Assembly: GCF_017377745.1 (NCBI RefSeq)
Contig: NZ_JAFVMG010000001.1
Location: forward strand, 310,001 to 374,000
Length of the DNA: 64,000 bases
Origin: Acetobacter suratthaniensis
GTDB lineage: Bacteria > Pseudomonadota > Alphaproteobacteria > Acetobacterales > Acetobacteraceae
Reading direction: 5' to 3'
In this document: positions 259 through 12,617 of the stretch, piece after piece
Layout of the letters: each line of letters opens with the position of its first letter
Numbering within the stretch: the stretch's first letter is position 1
The notes under the pieces: generated by a model
The model's input: only the letters and a program-made list of their open reading frames with translations
Database searches by the model: none
Told to the model about the DNA's origin: nothing
Position numbers and translations under genes: made by a program

Positions 259-2622
259 ATGACGACGCAGGACGAAAAGCCGCAACGGAGCGTCAGGGCC
301 ACGCCTTCCAAGACTTCGACCAAAAGCCGCAGTCCTGCCCGTGCTACGGCGCGTGGGGCTACAACGCGGCGCAGTGCGGCCGCACAGGCGGCGACGGCCG
401 AGGGGGAAAAAACACCCCGCGTGCCCGCCACGCGCAGCCGTAAGACGGCAGAGCGGCATATCGACATGGATTCGCCCGAGCGGTTCATCAACCGCGAACT
501 GTCCTGGCTGGACTTCAACCAGCGCGTGGTGGATGAGGCTGACAATGCCCGCAACCCGCTGCTGGAGCGCCTGCGCTTTCTGTCCATCAGCGCCAGCAAT
601 CTTGATGAGTTTTATTCCGTTCGCGTGGCGGGGCTGGTGGGGCAACTGCGCGAAGGGCTGACAGCGACCTCGCCCGATGGCCGCACACCCGCCCAGCAGC
701 TTGAGGCCGTGCGCGAACGCACAGCGCGCCTGCTGCGCGAACAGCAGAGAATATGGACAGAGCTACGCCAGCTTCTGGCCGGGGCCGGGGTGACCCTGTG
801 CGAGACGGCGGATCTGAGCGAAGCAGATCGCGAATGGCTGGAAAAAACCTTCACCGACCGGGTTTTTCCGGTTCTGACACCGCTGGCGGTTGATCCCGCA
901 CACCCTCTGCCTTTCATCCCCAATATGGGTTTGGCGCTGGGTCTGCGGCTACTGTACGCGGAAACGGGCCTGTTCGCCATGAACGCCCTTATCCTGCTGC
1001 CTGCCCAGATAGAGCGCTTTATCCGCCTGCCGGTCTCTACCGTGCAGCCAGCGGGCGAAGCGCCTGCCATCCGCTTTATCCGGCTGGAAGACCTGATCAC
1101 CCTGTTCATAGACCGGCTGTTTGCCGGGCTGAGCGTGGGCGAGAGCGGTGTGCTGCGCGTTGTGCGGGATACGGATGTGGAGTTCGAGGACGAAGCCGAG
1201 GATCTGGTGCGTTCCTACGAAACCGCGCTCAAGCAGCGGCGTCGGGGGGTTGTGATCCATCTCGACATGGAAAAGCGCATGCCCGCCGAGTTGGCGGCGG
1301 CCATTGCCTCCGACCTTGATCTGCCCGCCGAGGAAATTGCCGTGCATTCGGGCATGATCGGCGTTGTCGATCTGCGGCAGATGATTGTGGATGACAGGCC
1401 CGACCTGTTGTTTGCACCTTATACGCCGCGCTTTCCCGAGCGTATCATTGATTTCAATGGTGACTGTTTTGCCGCCATTCGCGCCAAGGATCTGCTGGTG
1501 CACCATCCGTTCGAGAGTTTCGATGTGGTGGTGCAGTTCCTGCGGCAGGCAGCACTCGATCCCAACGTGATTGCCATCAAGCAGACGCTTTATCGCACCT
1601 CGCGGGATTCCCCCATCGTCAAGGCGCTGATCGAGGCGGCCGAGGCGGGCAAATCCGTTACCGCCATGGTGGAACTGCGGGCGCGTTTTGATGAGGAGGC
1701 GAATATCCGCCTTGCCCGTGCGCTTGAGGCGGCGGGCGTGCAGGTCGTGTTCGGTTTTGCCGAACTCAAGACTCACGCCAAGCTCAGCCTGGTGGTGCGG
1801 CGCGAAGGGGCGCAGGTGCGCTCCTATGCCCATTTTGGCACGGGGAATTATCACCCCATTACCGCGCGTATTTATACCGACCTGTCCTTTTTTACCTGCA
1901 ATCCGGCCTTTGCTCGGGATTCTGCCCGGCTGTTCAATTACGTGACCGGCTACGCCATGCCCGCGCAGATGGAAGAGCTGTCATTCGCCCCCATGACTAT
2001 CCGCAAGACGCTGATGCAGTTGATCGAGGATGAGATCGAGCATGTGCGTGCGGGCCGTCCCGGCACGATCTGGCTGAAAATGAATGCGCTGGTTGACCCC
2101 GAACTGATCGACTGCCTGTACCGTGCCTCCCGCGCGGGGGTGAAGATTGTGGGGGTCATACGCGGCATCTGCTGCCTGCGGCCCGGCGTTCCGGGGCTGT
2201 CAGAGACCATCCGCATCAAATCGGTGGTGGGGCGTTTTCTGGAGCATGCGCGGGTGTTCGTGTTCGGTAACGGCCACCGCCTGCCGTCGCGTCAAGCGCG
2301 GGTATATATTTCCTCTGCTGACTGGATGACCCGCAACATGGACTGGCGGGTGGAAAGCATGGTGCCCATTACCAACGCCACTGTGCATGCACAGGTGCTT
2401 GACCAGATCATGATGGCCAATCTCCGCGATAATCTTCAGTCGTGGATACTGGAGCAGAACGGTGTGTGGCGGCGCCTGACGCCGGGCAACCGGCCGTTTT
2501 CGGCGCATGACTGGTTTATGACGCATCCTTCGCTTTCGGGCCGGGGTTCGGCAGCTCATGAACGGCCGCTGCACCCGCCTGCGGGCCTGCCGCCGGGGCA
2601 GGAACTGCTGATTGATGTCTGA
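259..2622 (+). CDS. ppk: Polyphosphate kinase (Ppk1)
   Basis: Polyphosphate kinase, which reversibly transfers the terminal phosphate of ATP to inorganic polyphosphate. The 787-aa product has about 70 N-terminal residues rich in Ser/Thr/Arg/Ala that are probably disordered and absent from shorter homologues. The Ppk core then starts at [16 protein letters not shown]. The phosphorylated His lies in THAKLSL (His506) and the second conserved His in [12 protein letters not shown] (His663), followed by [11 protein letters not shown]. The ATG is preceded by GGGAGAAG at good spacing. ppx follows after 93 bases in the same direction, so synthesis and degradation of polyphosphate are probably co-expressed. 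The identification is secure; the exact start is slightly less so because of the variable N-terminus. Confidence 0.97.
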
Positions 2623-2715
2623 TCCGATGCGGGGTTGGGGTACATATCCCGTGCGGTTGGGGCTTGCCGCACGGGGTGCTTTTCTGTCATGCCGCTTCGG
2701 GTGAGGGGAGACTTT

Positions 2716-4194
2716 ATGCAGCGTCGCTCAGCGGTTGTGGACCTTGGGTCCAATTCGGTCCGGCTTGTCGTGTTTGAAGGGGCATCGCGTAATCCGATGC
2801 CGATTTTCAACGAAAAAGCCGTGTTGCGCCTTGGTCGTGGCCTGACGGAAACAGGGCGGCTGAATGAAGATGGCGTTGCCATGGCGCAGGGCGTTGTCAG
2901 CCGGTTTTACGCCATTGCCCGCGCCATGCAGGCTGATCCGTTTGAAATTCTGGCCACGGCTGCGGTGCGTGATGCCTCGAATGGCCCGGCTTTTGTCGAA
3001 ATGCTGCGCAACAGCATGCCCGGTGTATCCATCAGGATTCTGTCGGGCGAGGAAGAGGCCGATCACTCCGCTATCGGGGTCATGTGCGGTATTCCGGGTG
3101 CCTCCGGTCTGGTGGCGGATGTGGGCGGTGGCTCTCTTGAGCTGATCAACCTTACGGCTGACGGTCGCCACCATGCCACAACCCTGCCGCTGGGTATGAT
3201 CCGGCTGGCGGACAGAGCCGGAGGTGATCTCGAAAAAGCCCGCCAGCTGGCCGATACCGATATTGATGGTGTCAAATGGCTGTCTGGCCGACAGGGCGGC
3301 ACGCTCTATCTTGTCGGGGGCGCTTTTCGTGCGCTGGCGCGGCTGCATATTGCGCGCACGCAGTATCCGCTCAACATCGTGCATTATTACGCGCTGGATA
3401 CGCAGGAAGCCCGCGAAATGACTGGCTGGCTGCAAAACAGCTCCCGTCGCAGTCTTGAACGTCTGCCCGGTGCGCCCCGTAAGCGGCTGGATGATATTCC
3501 CTTTGCCGCAACAGTTCTGCGGCGGCTCATGCGCAAGGTCATGCCTGAAAAGGTGGTGTTCTGCGTCGATGGGCTGCGCGAGGGCTGGTACATGCTCAAT
3601 GTCGCCTCGGAACTGCTGGCACAGGACCCGATGGAAGTCGTGGCCCGCACGATGTGCGAGCGCTTCGGGCGCAGCAATACCCTGCCTTCTGTGCTGTTGA
3701 ACTGGACACAGGGTGTGCTGCCAGAGGAAAGCGAGACAACCTGCCGCCTGCGCCATATTGCCTGCTACCTGTCGGATATCGGCAGTCACGACCATCCCGA
3801 ATACCGGGCGGAGCAGACATACTGGCGAGTGCTACGCTTACAGGGGGCTGGGTTCGATCATCTGTCGCGTGCATGGCTGGCGTTGGCGTTGGCCATGCGC
3901 TACGCGGCGGACGTAAACATGCCTTTCCTTTCGACCTCGCGCCAACTGCTGAGCGAAGGGCAATGGAACGAGGCCGTGGCGCTTGGGCTGGCCTTGCGTC
4001 TGGCATATTCGCTCTCGGGCGGGGCGGAATCCTTGCTCGAAGGTACAGCACTCGCCTGGCAGGATGGTGAGCTGGTGCTGACGCTCACCTCGGCACGGGT
4101 TGCGGTTAAAGGCGAAAGTGTCCGTCGTGGGCTGGAGCGTCTGGGGCAGGCGCTGGGTGCACCTACCCGCTTCGCACTCGATCTCGCCCACTGA
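2716..4194 (+). CDS. ppx: Exopolyphosphatase / Ppx-GppA phosphatase
   Basis: Exopolyphosphatase of the Ppx/GppA family (ASKHA fold), releasing phosphate from polyphosphate ends or hydrolysing pppGpp. The phosphate-binding loops are visible as VVDLGSNSVRLVVFEG near the N-terminus and VADVGGGSLELINL around residue 140. The C-terminal half is the HD-like helical region usual for long Ppx proteins. An in-frame start at 2635 exists, but the ATG at 2716 is preferred: it has GAGGGGAG just upstream and places the first beta strand (QRRSAVVDLG) at residue 2, as in homologues. This gives 492 aa. It lies directly after ppk. Ppx and GppA activities cannot be told apart from sequence alone. Confidence 0.95.
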   Translation: MQRRSAVVDLGSNSVRLVVFEGASRNPMPIFNEKAVLRLGRGLTETGRLNEDGVAMAQGVVSRFYAIARAMQADPFEILATAAVRDASNGPAFVEMLRNSMPGVSIRILSGEEEADHSAIGVMCGIPGASGLVADVGGGSLELINLTADGRHHATTLPLGMIRLADRAGGDLEKARQLADTDIDGVKWLSGRQGGTLYLVGGAFRALARLHIARTQYPLNIVHYYALDTQEAREMTGWLQNSSRRSLERLPGAPRKRLDDIPFAATVLRRLMRKVMPEKVVFCVDGLREGWYMLNVASELLAQDPMEVVARTMCERFGRSNTLPSVLLNWTQGVLPEESETTCRLRHIACYLSDIGSHDHPEYRAEQTYWRVLRLQGAGFDHLSRAWLALALAMRYAADVNMPFLSTSRQLLSEGQWNEAVALGLALRLAYSLSGGAESLLEGTALAWQDGELVLTLTSARVAVKGESVRRGLERLGQALGAPTRFALDLAH

Positions 4195-4355: not shown

Positions 4356-6704
4356 GTGTCACCGGCAACAGGCAGTGGAAACCGTTGCGTGTCTTCTGAA
4401 GAAATTATTGACCCGACCGCCCAGAACCAAGCCGGCATGCGCAAGGCGCTGCTGCATCTGGCCCTACCTTTTGGCCTGACCATTCTGGCCGTGGGGGCCA
4501 TTGCCTGGGTTGGCCTGAGTTCATACCGCACAACGCGCGAAGGTGTTGCCCGTCTGACGCAGGAACTGGTCGAGGCGGTGCAGAGCTATATCGTGCAGGA
4601 AGTGGCTGATTACATCATGCCCGCCGCAGCCGGGAACCTGATTGCCAGCGGCATGATAGAGCACGCCCCCGTGCAGGTGCAGGACAAGGTGTTCTACTCC
4701 TATGCGAGCACCATGCTGCGCAAAATTCCGCAGCTTCAGTCTTTTTATCTGGGGGGAGAAGACGGCATCCTGCGGCTGGTTACGCGCTCATCCGACCCAG
4801 ATCTGCTGGATCATGAAGTGCTGATTGTCAAAAACGGGCATCAGTATTTCCACCATGCGCTGTACAATCAGAAAGGCCAGAAGGTTTCTGAATATGATGA
4901 AGATGCAGGCGCTTATAACCTGCGTGTTCGGCCATGGTTTACCAGCACCAAGGGCAGCAGCGATATAAAATGGACGCAGCCTTACCTGTTCTCGGATAGC
5001 AAGCAGTTTGTCATGACCAGTTCCCTGCGCTTCAAGGGAGCTGATGGCAACGAACTGGTTTTTGCCACCAATATTTCGCTCAATGAACTGAGCAGCTATC
5101 TGGACCGCATCAAGATCGGCCAGACCGGCAGCGCCATGATTGTGGATTCACAGGGCCGGATCATGGCCGGGCGCAACCTTGACCAGAAAGCCCGCGCGGC
5201 CAACTGGAACCCCGACAACATGCGTATAGACCCCAAGGATGAACCCGTTTTCGCCCTTGGTTATGACCATTACCGCGTGCGGGGCTTTGGCGTGCACAGC
5301 GTTACATGGAACAGCCGGCGCTATATTGTCATGGCTTCGGCTCTGCCTCGGTATTCGCAGGGATGGGTACTGCTGATTGCCGTGCCAGAAAAGGACATGG
5401 CCAGCTTTGCCCACCAGAGCAGCCGCCAGAGCCTTCAGTTTGCCGGGATTATCATTGTATTTTCCACATTGCTGGGGGGGCTGTTCATCCGTCAGGTACG
5501 CCGGACGGACCGCGGTGCCCGGGCTTTGTCGCAGCAGAACCAGCAGGTGGAGCAGGAAAGTGCCGCGGCCCGTCAGGTGGCGGTGTCACCCGGCCTGTTC
5601 GACCCTACGATCGAACCGCTGGTACTGACCGAACAGCTTGCTGTCGTGACGGATAGCCGCCGCGCCAGCCTGTGGCGTTTTCTGCACGATGGCGCGGCCA
5701 TGGTGTGCGAGGATTCCTACGACCACCAGCAGGACACCCATACCGGCGGGTTTGAAATGGGCCGGGCCGAGTTGGGCAGCTTTTTCAGCGCGATTGATGA
5801 AGGGGCGTGCTTTACCGTTATCAATGCTGCGGCCGATGAGCGGACGGGGCGCTTTGAGCGTTTGGTCATGCGCGAAATCGGCACCTCCATGCTGGCGGTG
5901 TTTCCGGTGCATGGGCCGCGCGGTATTGAAGGGATGGTCGCGCTCGAAAACCCGAGACTGCTCGCGCAACAGCAGTATTTTGTGGACATCGTGGCTGCTA
6001 TCGCAGGGATGCGCTTTGCCGCTATGCGTGTTGGCGAAAAAGACCCATCGCAGCAGAAAAACCCGCTGGCGACACAGCCCCATAAAGTGCTGCCGCCCTT
6101 GCTGACCGACAATATGCTCATGCACACGCCGGGCATGGACGGGCTGAGCGGGGCCAATGTTTACAATGCCGTGGCCGTGCTGATTATTTCCTTCTCCGAC
6201 CCCGAGGTGGAAGGTGCGCAGGAAACCGAAGCCCTGATTTCGCTGATCGACCAGCTTGCAACCCATGTGCAGAGCATCGCACTGGAACACCAGCTGTTTG
6301 CCGTGGAAGTGGCAGGGCATCGCATGATCTGCATGGCGGGTTGCGGGGCGGAGGAAGACCCCACAGCACTGACCAGACTGGCCGATGCCGCGCTGAAAAT
6401 GCGTGAGACCTTCATGGGCGCGTTGGCAGCGGTTGATCTGGAGCCTGTTTTCTCTATGGGCATGGATTATGGCCCGGCCTTTGGGGGACTGGTGGGGCAG
6501 GCGCCACAGGTTTTCAACCTGTGGGGGCAGACTGTCTCGCTGGCGGAGCTGATGTCCGAAGGCGCGTCCGATCCCGGTGTCATTCAGGTGACGGAGCGCG
6601 TTTACGCCGCCCTGCGTGATCGCTACCTGTTCCGCAGCCGTGGCACGTTCTTTACCCCGCATCTGGGTCTGGGCCGGGCTTATACGCTGGCGGCCAGCCG
6701 ATGA
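4356..6704 (+). CDS. Membrane sensor: Cache-like, GAF and degenerate class III cyclase domains
   Basis: A 782-aa (longest form) inner-membrane sensor. TM1 is about residues 31-53, a large periplasmic dCache-like region about 55-355, TM2 about 361-378, a GAF domain about 410-560, and a C-terminal region (595-782) resembling class III nucleotidyl cyclases (VFSMGMDYGPAFGGLVGQ, then FNLWGQTVSLAELMSEG). The catalytic residues look lost: the first metal Asp strand reads VAVLIISFSDPE, the second site reads VAGHRM instead of a GD motif, and the GDTVN...SR signature reads GQTVS...EL. It is therefore probably a pseudo-cyclase, perhaps a ligand- or partner-binding module. The start is uncertain: GTG 4356, GTG 4389 and ATG 4437 are all possible. 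Its stop overlaps the next gene (ATGA), coupling it to the MCE transport genes. Function is inferred only. Confidence 0.85.
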   Translation: MSPATGSGNRCVSSEEIIDPTAQNQAGMRKALLHLALPFGLTILAVGAIAWVGLSSYRTTREGVARLTQELVEAVQSYIVQEVADYIMPAAAGNLIASGMIEHAPVQVQDKVFYSYASTMLRKIPQLQSFYLGGEDGILRLVTRSSDPDLLDHEVLIVKNGHQYFHHALYNQKGQKVSEYDEDAGAYNLRVRPWFTSTKGSSDIKWTQPYLFSDSKQFVMTSSLRFKGADGNELVFATNISLNELSSYLDRIKIGQTGSAMIVDSQGRIMAGRNLDQKARAANWNPDNMRIDPKDEPVFALGYDHYRVRGFGVHSVTWNSRRYIVMASALPRYSQGWVLLIAVPEKDMASFAHQSSRQSLQFAGIIIVFSTLLGGLFIRQVRRTDRGARALSQQNQQVEQESAAARQVAVSPGLFDPTIEPLVLTEQLAVVTDSRRASLWRFLHDGAAMVCEDSYDHQQDTHTGGFEMGRAELGSFFSAIDEGACFTVINAAADERTGRFERLVMREIGTSMLAVFPVHGPRGIEGMVALENPRLLAQQQYFVDIVAAIAGMRFAAMRVGEKDPSQQKNPLATQPHKVLPPLLTDNMLMHTPGMDGLSGANVYNAVAVLIISFSDPEVEGAQETEALISLIDQLATHVQSIALEHQLFAVEVAGHRMICMAGCGAEEDPTALTRLADAALKMRETFMGALAAVDLEPVFSMGMDYGPAFGGLVGQAPQVFNLWGQTVSLAELMSEGASDPGVIQVTERVYAALRDRYLFRSRGTFFTPHLGLGRAYTLAASR

Positions 6705-7612
6705 CGGAAAAGCCAGAAACTCCGCAGGCCGAACTGTCCTCCACTGAGGATATGCAAGACCCTAACGACCCCATTCTGGCAGGGCGGCCGGGAGTTTCGC
6801 ATGGGCGGTTCGACTCCCTGCTGGGCTGGAGCTGCAACCGGCTGGGCTGGATTGGCTGGCTGACACGGCGGCAGGCTCGGTTTCTGCTGATCATGCTCGG
6901 CGCATCGTGGGGGGTTATCTACGAAAGCCTGCGTGCACATTCATGGCGGCGTACGGTGCGGTATGAGTTTATCAGCACCATGAACGACATTATCCGGGGC
7001 GGGTTTGTCGCTACCCTGTTTGCCGGGGTGCTGACCGGGGTGGCTGCGGTGTCGCAGGTTATCTACTGGCTGGGTCTGACGGGGCTTGCCACCATGACCG
7101 GCTCCATCCTGATCAATGTGGTGGTGCGCGAAATCGCCCCTATTCTGGTCGGTATGCTGCTGCTGGGGCGTAACGGCATGCTGTCCACCACGGAACTGGG
7201 CCTGCTGACGATCGGGGGCGAGGTGCGCTCCATGCAGGCGGTTGGGGTTGATCCCTTCCTGCTGCTGGTTATGCCGCGTACGCTGGCTTTTACCGTGGCG
7301 GGTTTTACGCTGGGTATCCTGTTCTCGTTCGCCTCTCTGGTGACGGGCTATGTCATGAGCCGCCTGACAGGGGTTATCAGCAGCCCGGTCTGGACGTTTC
7401 TGGATAGCGTTGTCACGGCCATGTCGGGAATGGATTATGCTATTATCCCGCTCAAGTTCATTACGGTGGGCTTTGTTGTGGGCTTGGGCGGTTGTCTGAC
7501 CGGGCTGACCGCCACCCGGCACGACACCCTACGCTCCCTGCTGCCGCGTGGTTTTTCACGCGGGATGCTGATCGTGATGGTGGTCAGCGTGCTGTTCAGT
7601 CTGGATCTGTAG
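6701..7612 (+). CDS. MlaE/YrbE-family ABC permease (MCE transport system)
   Basis: Inner-membrane permease of the MlaE family, which moves phospholipids or other lipids between inner membrane and periplasmic MCE proteins. The 303-aa protein has an extra ~60-residue N-terminus, then five or six hydrophobic helices. The family core is visible as VVREIAPILVGMLLLGRNGM (about 141-160) followed by TTELGLLTIGGEVRSMQAVG. In canonical members the latter stretch reads AELGTM..EQIDAL and forms the helix contacting the ATPase; here EQIDAL is replaced by GGEVRSMQ. The start overlaps the preceding stop by 4 bases and the next gene begins 3 bases after its stop, so the operon is tightly coupled. Family assignment is firm; the substrate is unknown. 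Confidence 0.9.
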   Translation: MTEKPETPQAELSSTEDMQDPNDPILAGRPGVSHGRFDSLLGWSCNRLGWIGWLTRRQARFLLIMLGASWGVIYESLRAHSWRRTVRYEFISTMNDIIRGGFVATLFAGVLTGVAAVSQVIYWLGLTGLATMTGSILINVVVREIAPILVGMLLLGRNGMLSTTELGLLTIGGEVRSMQAVGVDPFLLLVMPRTLAFTVAGFTLGILFSFASLVTGYVMSRLTGVISSPVWTFLDSVVTAMSGMDYAIIPLKFITVGFVVGLGGCLTGLTATRHDTLRSLLPRGFSRGMLIVMVVSVLFSLDL

Positions 7613-7615
7613 AGC

Positions 7616-8317
7616 ATGGATACCTATACCGCAGGCCCGCTGCTGGAACTGAACAAGGCTGTTCCGTCCTTTGAAGAAAGCGGTCTGCCGCCCCGTCCGA
7701 TGAGCCTGCGCCTGATGGCGGGTGACTGCTTTGTGGTGGAAGAACGCGACCCCCAGCGTGCAACCATGTTTGCGGATATGTGCAGCGGGCTGGTGCCGCT
7801 TGATGCCGGGCAGGTCAGTTTTATGGGGCTGGACTGGACGGAAATGAAAGACCGCCAGCTTAACGCCCTGCGCGGGCGGATCGGGCGGATTGCCCGGCGG
7901 CCAAGCTGGCCCGGTTTCGTGCCCATGCACCTTGCGATCATGTTGCAGCAGTTGCATCATACCACCCGCACGCAGGATGATCTGTTGGCCGAGGCCGCGC
8001 GTCTGGCTGCATCTTTTGGCCTGCCGGGCCTGCCCACACAGGCACCGGACAGAATGTCCGATGCCGATCTGTGCCGGGCAGGCTGTGTGCGGGCTTTTCT
8101 GGGCCGACCCCACCTGCTTCTGCTCGAAGACCCTCTGGAAGGGGGGCCGCAGGAACTGGCGAACCCGTTCCTTGAGGCCCTGACAGAAGCCCGTGACCGG
8201 GGGGCCGGTATTATATGGCTCGTGCGGAATGCTGCTGTATGGCAGCGTTACCGCACGGGTGTCACAGCGACCTGGCGGCTTGCCGATGACGGTCTCGTAG
8301 CAGTACGGATGGGATAA
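7616..8317 (+). CDS. MlaF-like ABC ATPase homologue lacking Walker A and signature motifs
   Basis: By position (between permease and MCE protein) and overall layout this 233-aa protein is the ABC ATPase subunit of the Mla-like system. The fold is suggested by MSLRLMAGDCFVV, then SGLVPLDAGQVSFMGLDW, and PHLLLLEDPLEGG. The nucleotide-binding motifs are gone, however. The P-loop position (residues 42-50) reads EERDPQRAT instead of GxxGxGKST. The signature LSGGQ position reads MSDADLCRAG. Walker B ends LLLLED rather than LLLLDE. The H-loop position reads WLVRN. The frame is intact, uninterrupted and translationally coupled on both sides, so it looks like a maintained pseudo-ATPase rather than a decaying gene. 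It may be structural, or use another ATPase in trans. Both are inferences. Confidence 0.8.
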   Translation: MDTYTAGPLLELNKAVPSFEESGLPPRPMSLRLMAGDCFVVEERDPQRATMFADMCSGLVPLDAGQVSFMGLDWTEMKDRQLNALRGRIGRIARRPSWPGFVPMHLAIMLQQLHHTTRTQDDLLAEAARLAASFGLPGLPTQAPDRMSDADLCRAGCVRAFLGRPHLLLLEDPLEGGPQELANPFLEALTEARDRGAGIIWLVRNAAVWQRYRTGVTATWRLADDGLVAVRMG

Positions 8318-9267
8318 TGTTCCAGCTCCGCCTAAGGCAGAAAGTCAAACCTCTTGTTTCCATCCGCTATGCGGATGAATGGGTGGGCTTTCTTGTTCTT
8401 CTCAGTCTTGTCATTTTCGCGGGTTCCGTGATCGAGGCGGGTATCCTGCGCGACTGGCTGACCCCACCGGCCCGCTTGCGTGTGGTGTTGCCTGACTCAG
8501 GGGTGGGTGGGCTGACAGTGGGTGGCGATGTGCAGCTTATGGGCGCACATGCGGGTACTATCCGCTCCATCAAGCTCAACCCGTCTGGCAGTATGTATGC
8601 CAATGTAGACCTTGATCCGCAGGTTAAACCCTTTATCCGGCGGGACAGCACGGCTCTTATCCGCAAGCAGCTTATTGTTACCGGGGCATCCTATCTCGAT
8701 CTCAGCCGTGGTGCGGGCGAGCCGATGGACTGGAGCTACGCGGTTATCAAGGCCACACCGGCCCCCAATCCGGCGGATCAGATTACCGCTACCTTCGAGA
8801 GCATTCAGGGCCAGATCATGCCCGCACTGGCCAGTGCACGACACATGATGGCCGAGCTTGATTCCACCATGACCGATATGCACGCGGGCAAGGGCACGGT
8901 GGGGCGGCTGATGACCAATGATCAGCTTATCCGTCAGGCTGAAGCGACCATTGCCTCGCTCGATGAGGTTATCACACGCCTGCGGCCGATAGAGCAGCAG
9001 ATTTCCGGGGTTATGAAAAAGACCGATGCGACGATGGCCAATGTGCAGTCGGCCTCTGGCGACCTCAAGGCAGCCACGCCGCATGTCAAGAATATCGCGG
9101 GCAATCTGGATGAAAGCATGGCCGATCTGCCCGCTCTGCTCGCACAGGCGCAAACCACCCTGTATGGGCTGGAAAAGCTGACAGACCAGCTCAGGGGGGC
9201 ATGGCTGCTGGGTGGCCACAAGGTTTCGCGGCATAACCGTCTGGACCCGGAGCATGTGCAGCCATGA
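8317..9267 (+). CDS. MlaD-like MCE-domain substrate-binding protein
   Basis: A 316-aa membrane-anchored MCE protein. One N-terminal TM helix spans about residues 23-41, the MCE beta-barrel domain about 50-132 (RLRVVLPDSGVGGLTVGG, later KQLIVTGASYLDL), and a long helical region about 150-310 that should form the periplasmic needle or hexamer-stabilising part, as in MlaD/PqiB-type proteins. Its ATG overlaps the TAA of the ATPase homologue by one base, and its TGA overlaps the lipoprotein ATG (ATGA). It acts in the periplasm with the permease to carry lipids; the direction and substrate are not visible from sequence. Confidence 0.92.
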   Translation: MFQLRLRQKVKPLVSIRYADEWVGFLVLLSLVIFAGSVIEAGILRDWLTPPARLRVVLPDSGVGGLTVGGDVQLMGAHAGTIRSIKLNPSGSMYANVDLDPQVKPFIRRDSTALIRKQLIVTGASYLDLSRGAGEPMDWSYAVIKATPAPNPADQITATFESIQGQIMPALASARHMMAELDSTMTDMHAGKGTVGRLMTNDQLIRQAEATIASLDEVITRLRPIEQQISGVMKKTDATMANVQSASGDLKAATPHVKNIAGNLDESMADLPALLAQAQTTLYGLEKLTDQLRGAWLLGGHKVSRHNRLDPEHVQP

Positions 9268-10322
9268 GAAATACTGGCCCTCAGCCCGTTACCAAGGGCG
9301 GATGCGTAAGACAGCCGAACCTCCTGTTGCGTACGGTTCTGCCTCTGGTCGCCCTGCTGCCGCTGGCCGGGTGTGGCGGTGCTCAGCCAGAGCCTGCGGC
9401 GGAACAGTATGATGTCGCTTTGCAGCAGTTCCTGTCCGCCGGGCGGGATTCGTTCATGCTCGGGCGCTACACGGTAGCGGAAACCCAGTATCGCAAAGCC
9501 GCGTCACTTGCTCTGCTACGCGATAGTGCGCCGGAAATTGCTGAAAGCGGGTACGATCTGGCTGTGGCGCAACTAGCGGCGGAAGAACCGGCGCTGGCGC
9601 GCGCCACGGCGGATAAGACACGGCGTGCCGTGGCCCTGCGTGGTGGCCATGCCATGCCCTATCTCGATCTCGTAGATGCAGCCGCCTGTTACCGGCTGGG
9701 TTTGTACGAGCAGGCGCGTGACCTTGCGCTCAAGGCCGCGCAGGCTGTTAGCGGGGCAACGGCGTCTGATGCCGCGGGTCATGCCTCGGCGGTGTTGCTA
9801 AGCACACGTGCTGCACTGGTTTATGCGCTGGCAGCGGATCAGCAGGATGATACGGCGGCTCTGGCGCAGGTACCCGGCATGATCAGCACCGTGAACCCGC
9901 ATGTGGTCGCGGCGCTGTCGGTCGCACAGGCTACCGCCTTAAAAGCTGACCAGCGCGAGATACAGGCTCTTGTCGCCCGGCGGACAAACCCGGCTCAGGC
10001 CATGAGTGCGGCCGAAGATGCCGCGAGCTTGCGGCGTGAGGGCGGGAATTACCATGATATGGCGCGGGCTTTGGCTCTGGCTGCCCGTAGTGCCGATGCC
10101 GTGGGGCAGAAGGACAAGGCGCAGGCCCTGTGGTCACGCGCCGCCCAGAGTGCCGCGGCACAGGGTGGGGCTGCCAGCCATCTGTCCAGCACGCTGGCGG
10201 CGGGTGTTGCGGGGGCGGCGGATTCCATCCGCACCACCACACCCGATGATGCCAACGCATGGGCGCGTGCGGCTGGTGGGGTAACGCTCCATCCCTTTAC
10301 GGACGAAACTCCCAGCCCCTGA
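9264..10322 (+). CDS. Helical-repeat lipoprotein of the MCE operon
   Basis: A 352-aa predicted lipoprotein: hydrophobic signal LLLRTVLPLVALLP then lipobox LAGC (Cys37). The remainder is almost entirely Ala-rich helix with repeating YxxA/AxxLG spacing (DSFMLGRYTVAETQYRKAAS, later CYRLGLYEQARDLALKAA), typical of TPR-like repeats. It occupies the place where other Mla operons carry mlaC, mlaB or a PqiC-type lipoprotein, but I see no similarity to these. It probably tethers to the outer membrane and contacts the MlaD-like protein or an outer-membrane partner. It is coupled by a 4-base overlap. The repeat assignment is by eye. Confidence 0.8.
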   Translation: MRNTGPQPVTKGGCVRQPNLLLRTVLPLVALLPLAGCGGAQPEPAAEQYDVALQQFLSAGRDSFMLGRYTVAETQYRKAASLALLRDSAPEIAESGYDLAVAQLAAEEPALARATADKTRRAVALRGGHAMPYLDLVDAAACYRLGLYEQARDLALKAAQAVSGATASDAAGHASAVLLSTRAALVYALAADQQDDTAALAQVPGMISTVNPHVVAALSVAQATALKADQREIQALVARRTNPAQAMSAAEDAASLRREGGNYHDMARALALAARSADAVGQKDKAQALWSRAAQSAAAQGGAASHLSSTLAAGVAGAADSIRTTTPDDANAWARAAGGVTLHPFTDETPSP

Positions 10323-10376: not shown

Positions 10377-12617
10377 TCAGACTGCCTTGTAGGGTTTGGA
10401 GGCATCCAGAAACACAGCGTTGACCTCCAGCTCGTGCGATACCACGATCAGATAGGCAATCGCGCGCGTGAGTTCGATACGCTTGGCGATGTTCGGCTCG
10501 GTGGTTTCCATCGTCCGCAGGGCAATGGTGGCCTCCCGCGCGGCGCGGGCGGTATGGCCGTAAAGCCCCGTAAAATTGCTCATGCGTTTCATGACAATTT
10601 CAATGGCCCGGCGCGCGGCAGGTGGGATCTGGTTACGCTTGAGCAGCGCACGCAGGCGGATGATATTCAGCCCGATGGTCATGGCCGCCAGCGTGCCTTG
10701 CAGGCACCCTTCGATCGTGGGGGAAGGCGTTGGCCCCGCATGGCGGATGAGGCGGGAGAAACGGTCGATATTACGCCCGATCCATTCGCGCGTTTCGGGC
10801 AGGGGGTCGCTTGAAGCCAGCACGCGCAGATCGCGCAGGATAGCCCGGCGCATGCGCCAGCGTTCCGCCGCATTGTTAAACGGCAGCACGGCACGGAAAA
10901 TCAGCACCGCAAAACATACCCCCAGCAACACGGCCAACGTGGAGTTGAACCATGCTACCTCGTTTTCGCGGCCTTGGTTGAGCGGGTGCACGAAATTGGG
11001 CAGCAGCAGTGTATAAGCTGCCGAGTGCAGAGCTGTGCCGGCGTTGCGGGCGGCAAGCCCCCCTGCGATCATGGGGAGGGCGAGGGTCGCCACCAGCATT
11101 TCATAATTGGCCTGCGTGGGCAGGATGAAAAACACCAGAAAGAACGACACAAAGGCCGCCCACAAACTGCCGACCATGAACTGCGTGGTGGCCACCACCG
11201 GGTTTTCACGCGTGGCGAACAGACCGCAGACAATGGCGACAAAGGTAATGAAGCCCAGCCCCATATCCCAGGCTGTGCATTCCCAGATCAGCCCGGCGGC
11301 GGTAATGGCCACAGCAGCCCGCACGCCGTTGTACAGGGCTTCGCGCTTGTCCATGTGTGTGGGCAGGCGGAAATGAAACTGATCGCCTTTGATAAAGTGC
11401 TGGCTGGCGTCATATTCGCGTAGCCCCTGCTCAAGCTCGCCCAGCAGTTCATCCAGCGCGTTGTGCAGGATGCGGCCATCAAGCAGGGCGGTTAGCTGCG
11501 AGTGATCATCTGACGGATCGAATACGCTACCGATTTCGTGGGTCAGGGCATCCACGATCTGCTGGTGGCATTCAGCGCGTAGCAGTTGCAGGTCACGCAG
11601 GAGCAGGCGGATAGGCTCATCGCCGTTCAGGCGTGCGGGCAGGCTCGCCAGAAATTCGCTTACACGGGTGGACGTGGCGCGGAAAGCTGGCTGGTCGGTC
11701 TGGACATATTGCAGGCGCACCGCCATGCCCAGCCCGCGCGATAGCAGCACGGATACAGCCGAAAGAGCCGCACGCGCATGATCCCCCTCGCGCCCGTGGG
11801 GGCCCATTTCAACCTCGGAAAACTCGATCTGGTCGTTGATGGTGAGGATGGGGCCAAAGAGCGTGCGGGAGCGGATCATGGCTTCCTTGTCGCCCGAAAG
11901 CAGGCTGGAAACCGAAGATGAGACGTTGTTGAGTGCCGTACGCAGCTTGTCGCGCATGTTGCGCCGTGCGGTCTGGGCGAGATTGTGGGCGAATAGCCCC
12001 GCCACCGTGCTTTCACAGACAATCCCCAGCACGATGTAGGTCGCGCGGGACATGGCGGTCATGAACACGTTTTCAGGGTCGGGGATAGCGCCTAGAGCGA
12101 TAATGCAGGTCGTATAACCGGCCAGCACCAGAGCGTAGGACCGAAAGTTGCGGACAAGGGTTGCCAGTGTGCAGCACCCGCCAAGCCAGAGTGCGAGGGC
12201 GGGGAAGAAAAGCCACGCATGCTGGTTGAAGGCGGAAATAAGGGTGATGGACATCACCACCCCCACGCCGGTACCGACAAGACGCCACCGCGCCTTGGAA
12301 AGACTTTCCCCGCGTGAGCCCTGTGCGACGATCCACACCGTCATGGGCGCCCATTGCGGGTCGTCCAGCTCCATCCACAGGGCGATGACGAGCGAGAGCA
12401 GGGCGGCGATCGTACTGCAAACGGCAAACCCGAACGCCGCAGGCGTGGGCGCCAGCAGCCAGGCGAGCGGCAGTTTGCTCTGGCTGCCGGGGCGACCAAG
12501 CGGGCGCAGGGTGCGTAATGAGCCGATCCGGGCAAGCACTAGAGATGAAAGACTGAACACGGCGGCTACTTTGTGTTTTGCGGCGCGGAAAACAATCACA
12601 GGGAACTGTGCCGGCAA
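10377..12617 (-). CDS. FUSC-family inner-membrane protein (AaeB/YccS-like putative exporter)
   Basis: A 746-aa protein with two blocks of hydrophobic helices (about residues 55-195 and 440-575), each followed by a long cytoplasmic helical domain. This is the duplicated architecture of FUSC/AaeB/YccS proteins, linked to efflux of aromatic acids or to membrane stress. The motif DDPQWAPMTVWIVAQGSRG just after the first helix is characteristic of the family. It is convergent with the MCE operon, with 54 bases between stops. The start is uncertain: the longest frame begins with TTG at 12617, with GTG codons a little downstream, and no clear Shine-Dalgarno sequence distinguishes them. The substrate is unknown. 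Confidence 0.88.
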   Translation of the reverse strand: MPAQFPVIVFRAAKHKVAAVFSLSSLVLARIGSLRTLRPLGRPGSQSKLPLAWLLAPTPAAFGFAVCSTIAALLSLVIALWMELDDPQWAPMTVWIVAQGSRGESLSKARWRLVGTGVGVVMSITLISAFNQHAWLFFPALALWLGGCCTLATLVRNFRSYALVLAGYTTCIIALGAIPDPENVFMTAMSRATYIVLGIVCESTVAGLFAHNLAQTARRNMRDKLRTALNNVSSSVSSLLSGDKEAMIRSRTLFGPILTINDQIEFSEVEMGPHGREGDHARAALSAVSVLLSRGLGMAVRLQYVQTDQPAFRATSTRVSEFLASLPARLNGDEPIRLLLRDLQLLRAECHQQIVDALTHEIGSVFDPSDDHSQLTALLDGRILHNALDELLGELEQGLREYDASQHFIKGDQFHFRLPTHMDKREALYNGVRAAVAITAAGLIWECTAWDMGLGFITFVAIVCGLFATRENPVVATTQFMVGSLWAAFVSFFLVFFILPTQANYEMLVATLALPMIAGGLAARNAGTALHSAAYTLLLPNFVHPLNQGRENEVAWFNSTLAVLLGVCFAVLIFRAVLPFNNAAERWRMRRAILRDLRVLASSDPLPETREWIGRNIDRFSRLIRHAGPTPSPTIEGCLQGTLAAMTIGLNIIRLRALLKRNQIPPAARRAIEIVMKRMSNFTGLYGHTARAAREATIALRTMETTEPNIAKRIELTRAIAYLIVVSHELEVNAVFLDASKPYKAV

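Follow-up and report, generated by a model that had tools for sequence, protein, structure and literature searches.

Here we describe a five-gene module, A–E, which fills positions 4356–10322 on the forward strand of a 64,000-nucleotide stretch of the Acetobacter suratthaniensis genome (hereafter the window; C1:310001-374000 of a 3.09-Mb genome) and joins a membrane sensor to an MCE-type lipid transport system. The ABC-ATPase homologue (gene C) and the cyclase homologue (gene A) have both lost the motif residues of their catalytic relatives, and the module genes are under purifying selection. That such a module is conserved although catalytically degenerate points to a transporter governed by sensing and scaffolding and not by an ATPase of its own. 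We read it as a dedicated, sensor-coupled MCE-type lipid system in which the ATPase subunit has turned into a non-catalytic adaptor, an interpretation on which we are evenly balanced.

Catalytic motifs and domain composition

Gene C (7616–8317, + strand) stands at the MlaF position of the operon. Its match to the Pfam family ABC_tran (16.4 bits) fell below the cut-off of 25, and a model computed from a 54-row alignment gave a complete ABC nucleotide-binding domain with a mean predicted local distance difference test score (pLDDT) of 95.2. Comparison of this model with the PDB returned 1161 matches at E ≤ 0.001, and the best 50 of the 1161 were largely ABC ATPases; E. coli MlaF (6xgz) ranked fourth, with a query template modelling (TM)-score of 0.81 and 17% identity. 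Motif columns were defined by the MlaF encoded in the same genome and read in 111 distinct sequences (184 C matches merged), a set that does not span all of the C-bearing genomes counted order-wide below. The Walker A lysine was present in 0/111 sequences (alanine in 83), its first glycine in none and its sixth in one. The Walker B aspartate remained in a single sequence (glutamate in 108), the catalytic glutamate in 10, the H-switch histidine in two and the Q-loop glutamine in 20; in the signature motif, the serine was found in 80 sequences and the two glycines in 4 and 8. When the Walker A lysine and serine/threonine, the Walker B aspartate, the catalytic glutamate and the H-switch histidine were scored together, 33 sequences kept none of the five, 73 kept one, five kept two and none kept more. 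Neither a G4xGK[ST] nor an LSGG-type signature pattern occurred in the 111 sequences, and both were present in the MlaF and in the Mpc-like (Mla-Pqi chimeric) ATPase of the same genome. In the window itself, residues 43–50 of C (ERDPQRAT; 7742–7765, +) lie opposite the Walker A sequence GGSGSGKS of the own-genome MlaF, and a Glu-Asp pair (residues 171–172; 8126–8131, +) replaces the Walker B aspartate and the catalytic glutamate. C is predicted to have the ABC nucleotide-binding fold but not the chemistry that goes with it. A preliminary description of the locus, made from the window alone, had allowed that close homologues might carry intact motifs; no distinct C sequence carried the Walker A motif, and a strain-specific loss or a sequencing error was rejected because the motif losses are common to all 111.

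Conservation along C was expressed as the share of equal-length segments at least as conserved, using 78 sequences (80 before identical ones were merged). The stretches aligned with Walker A (87%) and with the H-switch (83%) were poorly conserved. The best-conserved stretches were FGLPGLP (0%; residues 134–140; 8015–8035, +) and LRGRIGR (1%), indicating that selection tracks something besides those parts of the nucleotide pocket. LRGRIGR presumably lies just ahead of the Q-loop, and FGLPGLP presumably falls in the helical subdomain, near where the coupling helix of the permease would dock. The same columns bear on the alternative that C has remained an enzyme that works in a non-standard way, binding or hydrolysing nucleotide through altered residues. 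Such an enzyme could draw on the glutamate that almost always stands at the Walker B aspartate, on the Walker A serine/threonine kept in 70/111 sequences, on an arginine just ahead of the lysine position in 68/111, and on the conserved strand before Walker B; it would have to work without the Walker A lysine, mostly without the catalytic glutamate and the H-switch histidine, and with Walker A-aligned and H-switch stretches that are poorly conserved, and we consider it very unlikely.

Gene A (4356–6704, +) encodes a membrane sensor with a dCache domain, a weak GAF-like region and a C-terminal class III cyclase-homology domain, as judged from Pfam and PDB profile matches. The preliminary assignment as a Cache-GAF-cyclase sensor stood for the first and last of these parts: dCache_1 (4866–5189, +) scored 48.6 bits against a cut-off of 45, with PDB profile matches to PctA-type chemoreceptors, and Guanylate_cyc (6216–6650, +) scored 54.1 bits against 21.9, but the GAF-like region remained under its cut-off (13.3 versus 22.4 bits). 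The start proposed at GTG 4356 did not hold up as well, since family homology begins at codon 4440 and makes ATG 4437 the likelier start. In PDB profile searches, the C-terminal domain matched adenylate cyclase structures best (8buz, 7yz9), and the homology extends across this C-terminal part of A, whereas the metal-binding and transition-state residues are replaced. At the positions that we take to be the class III motif, placed via the PDB profile alignment (two metal-binding aspartates and the transition-state asparagine and arginine), 68 of 76 sequences (78 before merging) retained none of the four residues and eight retained one, with one row gapped; the A of the window has Ser, His, Ser and Leu. 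To judge from these columns, A is a pseudo-cyclase, and the motif loss first noticed in both enzyme homologues was borne out.

The remaining genes are transporter-like, as had been proposed. Gene B (6701–7612, +) is an MlaE-family permease (MlaE domain 6971–7600; Pfam 111.6 bits, cut-off 22.5) that could be aligned with canonical permeases. Gene D (8317–9267, +) is an MCE protein (MCE domain 8503–8712; MlaD 41.7 bits, cut-off 25.1) whose long C-terminal part matched coiled-coil-like families. Gene E (9264–10322, +) encodes a lipoprotein whose lipobox cysteine, Cys37 (9372–9374), was invariant in a 48-row alignment. E was modelled as an all-helical alpha-solenoid of the tetratricopeptide repeat (TPR) type (pLDDT 82.4, ends poorly modelled), and a PDB fold search gave five matches at E ≤ 0.001, all of them TPR proteins with query TM-scores ≤0.41. 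For E, no Pfam family scored above its cut-off, a BamD-like NCBIfam match was weak and below cut-off, and neither Pfam nor NCBIfam gave a PqiC-like lipoprotein match. Pfam detected no STAS domain on B at E ≤ 1, and none was found across the five genes. In the putative coupling helix of B, the aspartate shared by the two canonical permeases of the same genome was arginine in 16 of 21 rows and aspartate in one (21 of 78 B rows were aligned, and the helix segment is our assignment). The replacement of this acidic residue fits co-adaptation to C rather than to a canonical ATPase, as far as the alignment can be taken.

Gene order, selection and distribution

The five genes were described at the outset as one translationally coupled unit, and the tight spacing was confirmed in the window and in relatives. 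A and B overlap by 4 bases (6701–6704), B and C are separated by 3 bases (7613–7615), C and D overlap by 1 base (8317) and D and E by 4 bases (9264–9267). We compared 75 loci, comprising the window, 14 Acetobacter loci and 60 fetched by place; two contigs occurred in both collections (L046/L125 and L047/L128), so the loci are not all distinct genomes. Median distances were −4 (A/B), 2 (B/C), −1 (C/D) and −4 (D/E), scored in 74, 75, 75 and 74 loci, respectively. The preliminary description had proposed looking for the same gene order in related genomes, and A-B-C-D-E on one strand was kept in 73 of the 75 loci, the exceptions being L080, which lacks A, and L095, which yielded no E and ends soon after D. 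In L116, 990 bases separate A from B. Another five loci, of which three belong to the family and two to other families, contained B-C-D-E; A was present as well in four of the five. Six short loci showed A-B-C-D-E as far as their sequence reaches. Across these sets, every B-bearing locus examined, 86 in total (75 + 5 + 6), had C. Chance adjacency was rejected because the gene order is conserved.

Selection was assessed from the ratio of nonsynonymous to synonymous substitution rates (dN/dS; Nei-Gojobori method) in 10 chosen pairs, in seven of which the neighbouring ppx gene was found and could be compared. As anticipated for a functional module, values were far below 1, ranging over 0.034–0.196 for A, 0.013–0.111 for B, 0.025–0.324 for C, 0.008–0.152 for D and 0.040–0.275 for E, with 0.018–0.117 for ppx. 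C was under A in seven of ten pairs and over ppx in four of seven; its highest value (0.324) came from a pair with a dS of only 0.08. Neutral decay of the module was rejected on these values. The notion that the module is a decaying remnant or an assembly artefact draws on a handful of defective copies: in G195, A has stops and the B match is shortened; in G185, A is in pieces; a stop lies within the permease match of G201, G229 and G269; and frames are split in the draft assembly at L044. It is refuted at the level of the whole family and extremely improbable for the locus described here, as frames were intact in nearly all fetched loci, dN/dS is low and the 111 C sequences share identical motif losses. 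Two of the defective copies, with shortened permease matches, belong to family genomes of about 2.0 Mb (G185 and G195), which suggests that the module can be lost in small genomes.

Within the genus, C was detected at E ≤ 2.1e-66 in 37/37 genomes, the window's own included; by permease identity, the nearest relatives were Acetobacter papayae (95%) and Acetobacter peroxydans (94%). In the family set of 249 genomes, treated as one set for both genes since the listed handles agree, permease orthologues were called at E ≤ 2.8e-20 (next best 6e-14) and A at E ≤ 1e-60. B was found in 76 genomes and A in 78: together in 75, B alone in one (G289), A alone in three and neither in 170. In each of the three A-only genomes (G151, G168 and G222), the A match is cut by a contig end. 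The claim that a sensor is joined to an MlaE/MCE system is well supported, with exceptions in G289 and G361, two members of one genus in which A was absent at E ≤ 1e-10. At their loci (L080 and L182), unrelated genes lie upstream of B-C-D-E, one of which in L182 resembles mfd by eye.

This linkage is also what the module would show if it were a sensor rather than a transporter, with D and B reading the state of the envelope lipids, and A and C passing it on without net lipid transport. Two enzyme-like parts turned non-catalytic and an A that is nearly always linked agree with such a device; against it, the MlaE permease, the MCE protein and the lipoprotein, which make up the parts list of a conduit, are all kept and constrained, and two genomes hold B-C-D-E without A. 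We regard a pure sensor as quite unlikely.

Order-wide, C occurred in 153 of 299 genomes, that is, 174 minus 21 matches near 1e-21 that were taken for generic ABC ATPases. Outside the family it was found in two other-family genomes among 385 in a class-level sample and in one among 398 in a phylum-level sample; these searches scored the top seven first-look candidates per genome, so weak members could escape. Within the two other families, C was present in 5/17 and 3/39 genomes, with Walker A lost likewise. The degenerate C is thus patchy in these families (f37 and f60, alphaproteobacterial by their kinship label; L179, L180 and L187-L192), and in the six short loci from them, portions of the other four module genes lie next to C. 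In a tree of C only, f37 and f60 members nested within the family, and those of f60 fell at three separate positions, with supports of 0.997, 0.654 and 0.265. The tree, in which several of the deep nodes have weak support, suggests that the module was already degenerate when it spread horizontally. C had no match in PLSDB, and a plasmid-borne module was rejected on that basis.

Relation to other MCE systems and candidate mechanism

The preliminary description had also suggested looking for a second complete Mla operon, and two more MlaE loci with intact ATPases were found in the same genome, which holds three MlaE permeases and four MCE genes in all. One is an mlaEF locus at C1:162106 with intact ATPase motifs. 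The other is an Mpc-like operon on contig C45 (L144), with a permease bearing a weak STAS match below the curated cut-off, an intact ATPase, an MCE protein and then a lipoprotein-like gene whose likeness to PqiC was judged by eye. The window's module is thus additional to canonical systems. None of the four MCE genes adjoins mlaEF (L145, G000:C1:157000-168000; see also L142 and L143), and single MCE genes lie at C34:121892 and C1:602409.

These intact ATPases could in principle supply what C lacks. C might pair with an active ATPase encoded elsewhere, MlaF or the Mpc-like one, as an asymmetric pair or through sharing in the style of MceG. ABC heterodimers in which one of the two sites is degenerate have been described (PMC12038006), and MceG serves both Mce1 and Mce4, as stated in part of another report (PMC9947336). 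A borrowed engine would have to reconcile itself with the loss of the acidic residue from the presumed coupling helix of B in 20/21 rows and with the constrained C that accompanies every B-bearing locus examined, and a canonical partner would need to serve two different permeases. We judge it unlikely.

Among described systems, the Mpc system of Brucella abortus shares with the window's module an MlaE-type permease, an ABC subunit, an MCE protein (331 residues versus 316 for D) and a lipoprotein last in the operon, going by part of its published account (PMC12436622). As described in that same part, the Mpc permease has an N-terminal STAS domain, which was not found on B; its ATPase is an MlaF homologue called well-conserved there, whereas C is motif-less; its lipoprotein is PqiC-like, whereas E is TPR-like; and only the window's module has a Cache/pseudo-cyclase gene in front (PMC12436622). 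E. coli MlaFEDB, in the portion of its description consulted (PMC7790496), likewise shares an MlaE permease and an MCE protein, and the C model resembles MlaF as noted above; unlike MlaFEDB, the window's module has no STAS domain found and no motif-bearing ATPase, and it adds the sensor and the TPR-like lipoprotein. We class the module with MCE/Mla-type transport but with neither Mla nor Mpc, because the motifs of the active ATPase that defines both were tested and are absent.

Two further comparisons concern how such systems are powered. The mycobacterial Mce1 and Mce4 systems share MceG, an active ATPase whose gene lies elsewhere, and the window's module differs from them in keeping a pseudo-ATPase inside the operon. 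To our knowledge, PqiA and LetA are not MlaE permeases. The MCE systems PqiABC and LetAB have inner-membrane proteins without an ATPase domain, according to part of the Mpc report (PMC12436622), so ATP-independent MCE transport has precedent; no ATPase homologue is kept in those systems, whereas C is retained here. The literature searched, mainly open-access and mostly best-ranked matches, gave no account of a pseudo-ATPase in an MlaE/MCE module and none of the present module from acetic acid bacteria. Those open-access papers that name both Acetobacter and MlaE concern, in the portions available, fly gut bacteria and fly egg-laying.

Taking the sensor-coupled adaptor reading forward, B, D with its helical extension and E would form a conduit that runs from the inner membrane towards the outer one. 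C, taken to be an ABC-ATPase subunit of ancient, non-catalytic type, would dock on B as a structural and regulatory adaptor. The Cache domain of A may bind a periplasmic ligand, and the cyclase-like domain may relay the resulting state to B and C, which would open or close the lipid path. What drives net flow would then be the gradient of the lipid or some other source of energy, not the hydrolysis of ATP by C. Gene order, motif loss, purifying selection and the co-occurrence of A with B are observed and the fold of C is predicted, whereas we infer the formation of a complex, the surface through which C docks, gating by a ligand, independence from ATP and lipid as the cargo. Its most specific form, a ligand-gated, ATP-independent MlaE-family lipid conduit in which the ABC engine has become a passive gate and a pseudo-ATPase links a pseudo-cyclase receptor to the permease, is held tentatively and falls somewhat short of an even prospect.

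Several observations weigh against this interpretation. In each of the ten pairs, C was under weaker constraint than B and D. The strand into Walker B is well conserved (2%), with the signature stretch near the average (35%); this strand, together with the Walker B glutamate and the Walker A serine/threonine, means that some nucleotide or metal binding is possible. By sequence profile, DppD, MacB, BceA and FtsE outscored MlaF as matches to C, which therefore resembles ABC ATPases generally rather than MlaF specifically, so its descent from MlaF rests on operon position. The retention of B-C-D-E in G289 and G361 implies that the sensor is not indispensable, and an active ATPase from elsewhere could dock.

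MlaE-type MCE systems are thought to depend on ATP hydrolysis, and both the mechanism and the direction of intermembrane lipid movement in bacteria are debated. A long-lived natural system in which the permease, the MCE protein and the ATPase fold persist although the catalytic residues are gone would allow what the ABC subunit contributes structurally to be told apart from its power stroke, and it would tie lipid traffic to an external signal. If the ATP-independent conduit is real, it would be an ABC-type transporter without ATP hydrolysis at both sites and yet a conserved transport system. Acetic acid bacteria, in which the module could be studied, are genetically tractable, and A. pasteurianus LMG 1262 (locus L045) carries it.

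Genes flanking the module

Around the module, promoter-like patterns (2 found versus 2.0 expected) and terminator-like patterns (8 versus 4.7, standard deviation 2.3) occurred at or near the chance level. Upstream, polyphosphate kinase and Ppx/GppA genes occupy 259–4194 on the same strand, and ppx was present in 19 of the 75 fetched stretches. Downstream, a convergent gene at 10377–12617 (− strand) encodes a large membrane protein that resembles a FUSC-type exporter by eye.

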